Source of the DNA: Oscillibacter sp. 1-3
GTDB taxonomy: Bacteria > Bacillota > Clostridia > Oscillospirales > Oscillospiraceae
Direction: 5' to 3'
Assembly: GCF_000403435.2 (NCBI RefSeq)
Contig: NZ_KE159703.1
Coordinates: 186,001 to 250,000, forward strand
Length of the DNA: 64,000 nt
The position numbers and the translations under genes were made by a program. The notes under the pieces are model-generated. The model made no database searches, had not been told where the DNA came from, and saw nothing but the letters and a program-made list of their open reading frames with translations. Shown here piece after piece: positions 62,025 through 64,000 of this stretch. The first letter of the stretch is position 1, and every line of letters starts with the position of its first letter.

Positions 62025-62642
62025 TCACAATTTCAGTCCCCGGATCTCTGCCTGGAGGCGCTCCAGAAACCGCGCCGCGGGGATGCCGTCCAGCTGGGTG
62101 TGGTGAAACTGGAAGGAGACGGGGAGCTCGGTCCGCAAAAGCCTCTTCCGGTACCGTCCCCAGATCAGGAAGGGGTTGTTGTAAACGCCGGCGTAGATGT
62201 TCACCGCGCCGTCTATGTCGTATTGGGCCAGGGCGGAGGTGCCGATGACCATATAGTCCTCCAGGTCGTGGGGGCGGCCGGTGCCGCGCACCCGCTCGGT
62301 GAGGGCCAGGTAGTCCCGCTCAAACTGCTCCAGGTCCTGGGAGAAGGGAATGTCGCAGGTGCTGATCCCGCCGCCAGCGGCAACGACGGTGTTCACCGCG
62401 ATGCGGTCGTACTGGATCAGCTTGTCCCCCGCCGGCAGCAGGTAGAGCTCCTCTGTCCGAAAGGCCGCCGCGCCGATGCACCAGCACATGAGCATGTTGA
62501 ATTTGCGGCCGCGCCTGCGGCTGAGCCTTGCCAGGTTTGTGACGTCCAGGGTTTTGAAAAGCGTCACCATGGGCATGGGGGCGTTCATCCACAGGGCAAA
62601 CGCCTCGGCGCGGCCGGTCTGGCCGGGATCGATCTCTCTCAT
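62025..62642 (-). CDS. chloramphenicol-acetyltransferase-like O-acetyltransferase
   Basis: This 205-residue CatA-like enzyme has the catalytic motif as SFQFHHTQLDGIPAARFL (H-H-x3-DG) near the C-terminus, and NMLMCWCIGAAAF and FLIWGRY match type-A CAT folds. The N-terminal helix lies in EAFALWMNAPMPMVTL. Whether it gives chloramphenicol resistance is uncertain; many genomic CAT-like genes do not. The gene is slightly shorter than usual (~215). The leader region of the TM1266-like gene lies upstream, transcribed away. Confidence 0.85.
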   Translation of the reverse strand: MREIDPGQTGRAEAFALWMNAPMPMVTLFKTLDVTNLARLSRRRGRKFNMLMCWCIGAAAFRTEELYLLPAGDKLIQYDRIAVNTVVAAGGGISTCDIPFSQDLEQFERDYLALTERVRGTGRPHDLEDYMVIGTSALAQYDIDGAVNIYAGVYNNPFLIWGRYRKRLLRTELPVSFQFHHTQLDGIPAARFLERLQAEIRGLKL

Positions 62643-62774: not shown

Positions 62775-62804
62775 TTGACATTCCGCCCTGTTTTGTGGTA
62801 TTAT
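62775..62804 (+). promoter_or_regulatory. promoter of an attenuated leader
   Basis: Perfect TTGACA (62775-62780), 18 bases, TATTAT (62799-62804); start expected near 62811, about 186 bases before the TM1266-like ATG. Confidence 0.75.
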
Positions 62805-62810
62805 TTTCTT

Positions 62811-62971
62811 GTTCCCGGGAAGTTTTCTGACCGGCGGACGGTAAAATTCATTCTGTCGTTCTGGCAGCGAGGCATGAGACCCGAGCTGTAAGAGGAGAGA
62901 GGTGGCGCGGGGGCTCCCGCGTCCTGTCAGGTTATGCCACACCCCTCCGCCAAACGGCGGAGGGGTGTTTT
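62811..62971 (+). promoter_or_regulatory. candidate riboswitch-like or attenuator leader with intrinsic terminator
   Basis: The leader has a GCGGG/CCCGC hairpin (62907-62911 with 62916-62920), a GTGGC/GCCAC long-range pair (62902-62906 with 62936-62940) and a perfect 13-bp terminator (62939-62951 with 62956-62968, loop AAAC) followed by TTT. The long-range pair overlaps the first bases of the terminator, so the two folds compete. GGTGGCGCGG...CGCGTCCT resembles a T-box antiterminator but lacks the NACC core, so it is not a standard T-box. Confidence 0.55.
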
Positions 62972-62996
62972 AGATTTCAGGAGAGGAGGGACTTGT

Positions 62997-63254
62997 ATGG
63001 AGACCCGGGTGGCTTTGATCGCCGTCATCGTCCGCCAGGGCGGCGCCGTGGCGGAGCTGAACGGCCTGCTGCACCAGTACGCAGAGCATATTATCGGACG
63101 GATGGGCGTACCCTATCCGGCGAGAGGCGTCAATGTCATCAGCGTTGCCATGGACGCGCCGGCGGATGTGATCTCGGCGCTGTCCGGCAAGCTGGGGCGG
63201 CTCCCCGGCGTGACGGCCAAGACGGTGTACGCGCCGGAGGCGGCGCTGCAATAA
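62997..63254 (+). CDS. TM1266-like regulator associated with iron-only hydrogenase
   Basis: This 85-residue ferredoxin-like-fold protein resembles the TM1266/iron-only hydrogenase system regulator family (ETRVALIAVIVRQGGAVAELNGLLHQYAEHIIGRMGVPY; INVISVAM-like VNVISVAMDAPADVISALSGKLG). Such proteins are ACT-like/NikR-like and usually lie near hydrogenase maturation genes, which are not in this window. GGAGAGGAGGG precedes the ATG at 62997. The strong terminator upstream implies control by attenuation. Confidence 0.85.
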   Translation: METRVALIAVIVRQGGAVAELNGLLHQYAEHIIGRMGVPYPARGVNVISVAMDAPADVISALSGKLGRLPGVTAKTVYAPEAALQ

Positions 63255-63453: not shown

Positions 63454-64000
63454 ATGAAACTGTATCAAAGAATTATGTCCTTGTCCCTGGCGATCCTGCT
63501 CCTTTTGTCTCTGGCCGCCTGCGGCCAAAGGCCGGACATTCCGGATACGTCCTCCACGGCCCCGCAGGGCGATGCGCAGGAGCTGGTTCCCACCGACCCT
63601 CCGTCTCCCCCGGAAGCTGTCCAGACCCGGTTCGCCGCCCTGAAGGGCCCCACCGCCATGGGACTAGTCCATCTGATGTCCACGCCCGGTATTGGTGAGC
63701 ACTGGACGTTCACACTGGCGGGCTCCGCCGACGAGGTGACCCCCGCTCTCATCAAGGGGGATTTGGACGTGGCCTGCGTCCCGGCCAACCTGGCCTCCGT
63801 GCTCTACAACAAGACGGAAGGCGGCGTTGTGTGTCTTGCCGTCAACACCCTGGGCGTGCTCTATATTGTGGAAAACGGGGATGAGATCCAGTCCGTGGCA
63901 GATCTTGCGGGCAAGACCATTGTCTCCGCCGGCAAGGGCTCCACGCCGGAGTACGGCCTGCGGTATCTCCTCAGCGAAAACGGCGTCGACCCGGACAAGG
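63454..64000 (+). CDS. ABC transporter substrate-binding lipoprotein, NitT/TauT-like (partial)
   Basis: This gene runs past the window end; 182 codons are visible. A lipoprotein signal ends at Cys23 (LSLAAC) and is followed by a Pro/Ser/Thr-rich spacer and the binding domain: RFAALKGPTAMGLVHLM, VTPALIKGDLDVACVPANLASVLYN, and SVADLAGKTIVSAGKGSTPEYG. This pattern fits binding proteins of the NMT1/ThiY/SsuA class. The ligand is unknown (thiamine precursor, sulfonate or similar). Permease and ATPase genes are expected downstream. Confidence 0.85.
   Translation, partial: MKLYQRIMSLSLAILLLLSLAACGQRPDIPDTSSTAPQGDAQELVPTDPPSPPEAVQTRFAALKGPTAMGLVHLMSTPGIGEHWTFTLAGSADEVTPALIKGDLDVACVPANLASVLYNKTEGGVVCLAVNTLGVLYIVENGDEIQSVADLAGKTIVSAGKGSTPEYGLRYLLSENGVDPDK

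Follow-up and report, generated by a model that had tools for sequence, protein, structure and literature searches.

What kind of RNA precedes the TM1266-family gene of Oscillibacter sp. 1-3, and what might it respond to? The gene (85 aa; 62997-63254, + strand; NCBIfam TIGR03959 at 102.4 bits, cut-off 60.8; Pfam PF21699) is located near the end of the window, that is, the whole stretch of 64,000 nucleotides analysed here. The promoter in front of it, TTGACA-18-TATTAT (62775-62804, +), has its -35 element at 62775-62780 and an extended -10 element, preceded by TG, at 62799-62804; 11 of the 12 consensus bases are present and the spacer is 18 nt. It was recognised in the sequence and by a scan, which found three promoter-like sites in the 2.5-kb region vs 0.5 expected from shuffles, and a similar layout is seen in many of 25 aligned leaders of the same genus. 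Transcription would start near 62811, giving a leader of about 130 nt. At its end is an intrinsic terminator (62939-62968, +), found by the scan and consisting of 13 pairs, a 4-nt loop and a U run of TTTT only; the 25 aligned leaders have a terminator at the same place. The region has no excess of terminator-like sites (two found vs 2.2 expected from shuffles); the one in the leader has 13 pairs and the other has 5. The fold of 62810-62975 is better than those of dinucleotide shuffles (z = -4.7; one of 200 as good), much of this score being due to the terminator. The sequence, the scan and TIGR03959 agree with the earlier note on this DNA, which had placed the promoter, the leader, the terminator and the gene in this arrangement.

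Two hairpins occupy the leader upstream of the terminator. P1 (62811-62839, +; GUUC-CCGG-GA-AG..CU-GA-CCGG-C-GGAC) starts near the probable transcription start. P2 (62858-62897, +) has the conserved core UCU-GG-CAGC-GA-GG..CC-GA-GCUG-UA-AGA. In both, a stem is followed by a tandem purine mismatch (RA/GA), two further pairs and a loop. In P2, UCU/AGA forms a lower closure beyond a second 2x2 mismatch (GA/NA), so that it has two purine-rich 2x2 internal loops. The earlier note had proposed a covariance search upstream of TM1266 relatives, and such a comparison finds the leader conserved: P1, P2 and the terminator align in 25 of 29 same-genus leaders, with L026 (contig end) and L008, L051 and L053 (not alike enough) omitted. 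The hairpin between P2 and the terminator, which is rich in G+C (CGCGGG/CCCGCG, 62906-62921, +), varies in sequence, as seen from folding and the same-genus alignment. The key role once given to the GCGGG/CCCGC hairpin passes to P1 and P2 just upstream, since the exact hairpin is not kept.

Covariation is found in both hairpins. In P1, 97.9% of cells are paired and 11 cells are changed on both sides, and none of 500 shuffles reaches its covariation score; three pairs are changed on both sides, and 17 of 500 shuffles have as many. Alignment A6 has 18 of the 25 same-genus leaders, L047, with an odd outer helix, being among the seven not entered. For P2, alignment A3 (18 of the 23 sequences of A1; L010, L027, L029, L008 and L013, misaligned by an extra base or a shift, were omitted) shows double changes in seven of nine pairs and 95.1% pairing, and none of 500 shuffles is as high on four of five covariation measures. 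In the larger alignment A4 (47 sequences), which was fitted to the structure, 66 cells are changed on both sides vs 17 in shuffles; as many pairs with a double change occur in 50 of 500 shuffles. Further pair types in the A3 and P1 counts do not exceed those in shuffles. These shuffles, like the swaps described below, take no account of shared descent. The leader has, then, a conserved, structured, aptamer-like element with covariation, of the general kind seen in riboswitches.

Of 60 genomes, which include the window's own, 10 showed some plain DNA similarity. In G030:C6, G005:C2 and G008:C133 it spans the terminator alone, and covariance models were therefore used. The first model, R1, describes P2 alone and had TM1266 leaders from the window's order, and no others, as its training set; it scores the P2 of the window, itself in the training set, at 43.2 bits. 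Of the 29 same-genus genomes with TM1266 above cut-off, 21 have an R1 match upstream of this gene (15 of the 21 are in the training set; G034 is a doubtful 22nd). Elsewhere in the order, matches come from G045, G052 and G053, which belong to the training set, and from G051, which is new; a smaller search gave one for G055. Of 392 class-level genomes, 24 gave a total of 25 matches, including that of the window. Of the other 24 matches, 21 are upstream of hydG, hydE, hydF, TM1266 or a nifH-like/nifD-like operon; L079 and L081 are without a related gene and L090 runs off its contig. These three were excluded by gene context from the training of a wider model, R2, which was given 50 sources and matched 47 of them at E<=0.01 (L008, L009 and L013 did not match).

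With R2, at least 75 matches are seen in at least 69 of the 392 class-level genomes. Among the candidates scored, 323 of the 392 have no R2 match, under stricter filters and irrespective of hyd gene content. Related genes follow 61 of 70 annotated matches, and 41 of the 50 outside the training set. The annotation of the 70 was by BLAST for 55 and by reading for 6; one is at a contig end and 8 have no BLAST match to the reference set, the neighbourhood of L127 being read among these. Matches in G343, G306, G151, G120 and G237, the last without a related gene, are outside the 70. HydG, HydE and HydF were identified with NCBIfam on one example each and with BLAST for most others. The RNA was also searched for from the side of TM1266, which passes its cut-off in 43 of the 60 genomes, the window's among them. 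At 41 of 80 TM1266 loci there is an R2 match at E<=0.06, a few of the loci (e.g. L176, L181, L183 and L234) being training leaders again. All 47 matches are on the strand of the gene, and 45 are 450 nt or less upstream of TM1266, hydE, hydF, hydG or a nifH-like gene. The other 39 loci, some with little upstream DNA, have no R2 match at E<=0.06. Oscillibacter ruminantium, Desulfosporosinus hippei, Sporobacter termitidis, Emergencia timonensis and Loigolactobacillus rennini are among the named hosts.

The RNA is thus found upstream of HydE, HydF, HydG or linked genes across families. It precedes aspA at L099, L106 and L109, which represent three species of the same genus; hydF is visible behind aspA in L109 only, as the L099 and L106 stretches end earlier. 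Single weaker R2 matches (E 7e-4 to 5.5e-3) precede hypC-hypD-hypE (L130), a FecCD-type ABC transporter (L124) and the operon at L138. The aspA, hyp and FecCD genes were named by reading their sequences, except the FecCD-like protein of L074. The first protein of the L138 operon (G223) is a homologue of the substrate-binding protein of the window (BLAST E <1e-10), and G223 has the RNA also before hydG (L088) and before TM1266-hydE-hydG-hydF (L123). Two good copies of the motif are in tandem in L210 and L211, 8-15 nt apart, and in L202, L204 and L245 a second copy, weak (E 0.6 to 1.2) or partial, is 6-21 nt away. All five resemble the P1-P2 layout of the window. Sequence comparison gives strong evidence for the predicted structure and regulon of this RNA family. 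The idea in the earlier note of a conserved attenuator or riboswitch-like leader linked to hydrogenase genes holds: P1, P2 and the terminator are kept, and the RNA stands before hyd genes.

Several other neighbourhoods should be mentioned. In L078, L102 and L122 the RNA is followed by TM1266 and then by a membrane protein resembling an ECF S component; this likeness is from a TIGR04518 score of 19.3 bits, below the cut-off of 60, for the L078 piece, and from general likeness for L102 and L122. L060 (G018:C35:4686-4724) is a motif match of 31.4 bits with a matching terminator and no clear gene behind it, and is just downstream of a PF02906 hydrogenase match (G018:C35:3574-4440). At L116 (G179:C2:10200-22000) the genes encode NifH-like, NifD-like, HypF-, HypD- and HypE-like proteins, TM1266, two nitrogenase-like proteins and HydF, the Hyp-like names being given by reading; HydG was not found above cut-off in this genome. 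The NifH-like/NifD-like/Hyp-like/HydF operon (L116; also L130, L089 and L107) looks like an alternative route of H-cluster maturation. The order TM1266-HydF-HydE-NifH-like-NifD-like is observed in L182, L239 and L253.

The relation between P2 and the downstream signals suggests how the RNA might act. In terminator-type leaders, the bases after P2 (AAAGG... or AAGAGG...) have their complement in the 5' arm of the same leader's terminator; in L012, for example, GAAAGGUUCGGC pairs opposite GCCGUACCUUUUU. The duplex energy with the own terminator has a mean of -9.0 kcal/mol vs -6.7 kcal/mol with swapped terminators (sd 0.25; 0 of 20,000 swaps; 88 leaders). The 88 are those with a detected terminator among 111 leaders entered; some hydG-leader hairpins are inside the gene and spurious, and L092/L107 and L095/L116 are double entries. 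The outer helix of P2 has the same AAGR as its 3' strand, so P2 and the antiterminator compete. A second design is seen in 18 of 25 hydG-labelled matches, where the start codon is 5-12 nt after the motif, a AAAGAAAGG-like ribosome-binding site is on the 3' end of the motif (in L145 it is partly beyond), and the distance is too short for a leader terminator.

In the window, the 5' strand of the proposed antiterminator (AAGAGGAGAGAGGUGGC, 62890-62906, +) would overlap the 3' strand of P2, and its 3' strand (GCCACACCCCUCCGC, 62936-62950, +) would overlap the 5' arm of the terminator. The GTGGC/GCCAC pair pointed out earlier is present: GTGGC (62902-62906) and GCCAC (62936-62940) flank the GCGGG/CCCGC hairpin, the pair shares A62939-C62940 with the terminator arm, and it fits as part of the antiterminator. 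For a transcript that ends at the terminator's 5' arm, the antiterminator and P2 folds are within about 2 kcal/mol, and in the energy model the P2 core partly persists in the antiterminator state. A switch in the window's own leader is plausible on these calculations. An expression platform overlapping the aptamer is seen across the leaders, and in the window's own leader it is only suggestive.

It is proposed that binding of a ligand closes P2, so that its 3' strand would be usable neither as antiterminator nor as a free ribosome-binding site, and expression would stop. With P2 empty, the operon would be read. The terminator and ribosome-binding-site designs would follow the same logic, closed P2 being OFF. 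The ligand would report that the H-cluster is in sufficient supply, and might be an intermediate or the product of the pathway, or an imported precursor. P1 and P2 of the window are arranged in tandem ahead of TM1266 and the genes of an ABC importer. The leader is almost certainly a conserved cis-regulatory RNA. It is probably a riboswitch that binds its ligand directly, with OFF logic, and serves H-cluster supply.

A possible but less likely explanation is that the leader is a binding site for a protein, most simply TM1266, which would regulate its own operon and hydEFG by stabilising or melting P2. TM1266 is a putative regulator according to NCBIfam, its only solved relative by sequence being 2NZC, and it is directly behind the RNA in many genomes. 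Furthermore, TIGR03959 finds it in 59 of 62 RNA-bearing genomes tested (23 of 26 and 36 of 39 in two sets that share the three genomes without it); these genomes were selected from those with model matches, and most have a related gene next to the RNA. However, the RNA precedes hydG in G071 (97% complete), G233 (93%) and G430 (86%), where TM1266 was not found; this leans against TM1266 as an obligatory partner, although assembly gaps could mimic such absence. The 39 TM1266 loci without an RNA match also speak against it. It is very improbable that the leader is unregulated, its terminator ending another transcript and its conservation being by descent only. The lack of enrichment of terminator-like sites would agree with this, but the nearest upstream gene (62025-62642, CatA-like acetyltransferase) is encoded on the minus strand, which means that the terminator is not the end of that gene's transcript, as the earlier note had considered it might be. 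In addition, P1, P2 and the terminator are conserved as a unit with covarying pairs, and the RNA is met again in other families, ahead of different hyd genes, as well as in Loigolactobacillus rennini (L246).

A T-box, or a degenerate one, sensing uncharged tRNA can be set aside as extremely improbable: the partial likeness noted earlier (GGUGG...CGCGGG) falls in the hairpin that varies, no aminoacyl-tRNA synthetase is encoded behind the RNA, and no Rfam T-box match was obtained in the window, in 18 relatives or at the motif in 20 class loci, whereas the same model detects a T-box, separate from the element, in L111:2034-2276 (103 bits). T-box leaders have as hallmarks a specifier loop in Stem I and a UGGN bulge in the antiterminator. 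By eye, neither a specifier stem nor this bulge is conserved in the 25 aligned leaders.

The direct-binding riboswitch remains the preferred reading. TM1266 is followed by an SsuA/NMT1-like substrate-binding lipoprotein (63454-64000, +), cut by the end of the window; a permease and an ATPase follow in the genome. The RNA precedes hyd genes elsewhere; the window's own operon consists of TM1266 and an ABC transporter and contains no maturation genes. Two PF02906 matches are present in the genome, the better one being a 588-aa frame with TSCCPGW, MPCSAKKAE and EVMACPGGCAGGGGQP, which we take to be the H-cluster motifs; its [FeFe]-hydrogenase looks intact, judged from these letters. No HydF is above cut-off in this genome (best 91 bits vs 325.6) and HydG has no match; a HydG search in six genomes of the same genus gave none above cut-off.

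Of the same 60 genomes, 15 have a HydF above cut-off and 44 have the binding protein at E<=1e-15. The binding protein is without HydF in 41 and HydF without the protein in 12; both are in G030, G052 and G058, and neither is in G032, G035, G040 and G041 (77, 71, 55 and 90% complete). The transporter and HydF are thus anticorrelated (Fisher p = 4.6e-7; own genome included, 37 genomes from one genus, not tree-corrected), also in 23 order-level genomes with one per family (p = 0.0034, shared descent ignored). One or the other is present in 43 of 43 TM1266-bearing genomes. The hydrogenase domain was dropped as a contrast, PF02906 being found in 58 of the 60. In the same-genus genomes with HydF (G020 and G030), TM1266-HydE-HydG is in place of TM1266-transporter. 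This exchange and the anticorrelation suggest that the importer behind the RNA stands in for, and may replace, the missing cofactor-building enzymes.

More tentatively, and on balance doubtfully, the RNA might be a riboswitch for the diiron precursor or a late intermediate of the H-cluster, with the importer salvaging this precursor for [FeFe]-hydrogenases of gut bacteria that have no HydEFG. Import of an H-cluster precursor would explain the pattern of importer and HydF; other substrates would too. No credible RNA match was found at 16 transporter loci without an adjacent TM1266, or at L003, which has TM1266 and the transporter, and this argues against a tight link between transporter and RNA. 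The model of the binding protein is of moderate quality (pLDDT 75). The nearest solved fold is 3HN0 from Parabacteroides distasonis (ligand not stated), followed by TauA, SsuA, Thi5 and, lower down, PqqT; the fold search with this model points to no substrate. All 15 aligned sequences of the binding protein (L055:955-1998 and relatives) have a cysteine close to the C-terminus, within a P-x-C motif.

As a switch, the leader would be the first RNA of this sort linked to cofactor assembly of [FeFe]-hydrogenase, as far as our searches reach. Searches of mostly open-access literature, PMC12578642 and PMC10418091 included, turned up no account of this RNA or of HydEFG-free maturation. The covariance model is available for finding the RNA, and testable ligands are indicated. 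TM1266, a protein named only by its context, is now linked to an ABC importer that seems to replace maturation genes in a large gut lineage, and the source of the cofactor in the hydrogenases of this lineage becomes directly testable.

The RNA can be compared with known systems as follows. Rfam 15 (4227 families) gives no relevant match at the element in the window, its relatives or the class loci. No family reaches the gathering threshold in or near the leader, in line with the earlier note, which saw no riboswitch class it recognised, and at E up to 5 the leader has only two matches, far below gathering scores. The only Rfam match of the window at gathering threshold is a malK-I RNA (RF03069; 39387-39564, +; 147 bits). 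Rfam has no entry for the cis-regulatory RNA family to which the leader belongs; the kind itself is known. The leader resembles a T-box leader (RF00230) in the choice between terminator and antiterminator before a gene, and differs in the lack of a T-box match or visible specifier stem and in the genes that follow. The Guanidine-II (mini-ykkC) RNA has two small similar hairpins in tandem. P1 and P2 of the window resemble this arrangement; the leader gives no match to that family in the Rfam scans, and its sequence seems to differ. As in HydEFG/TM1266 operons elsewhere, the RNA stands in front of these genes, whereas the operon of the window has TM1266 and the ABC importer. The closest likeness in kind is to metabolite riboswitches with terminator or ribosome-binding-site platforms. 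Although the leader RNA is, unlike the known ones, in no Rfam family, it shares with them a compact conserved fold, covariation, a single pathway, two kinds of platform, tandem copies, and transporter and biosynthesis genes side by side.
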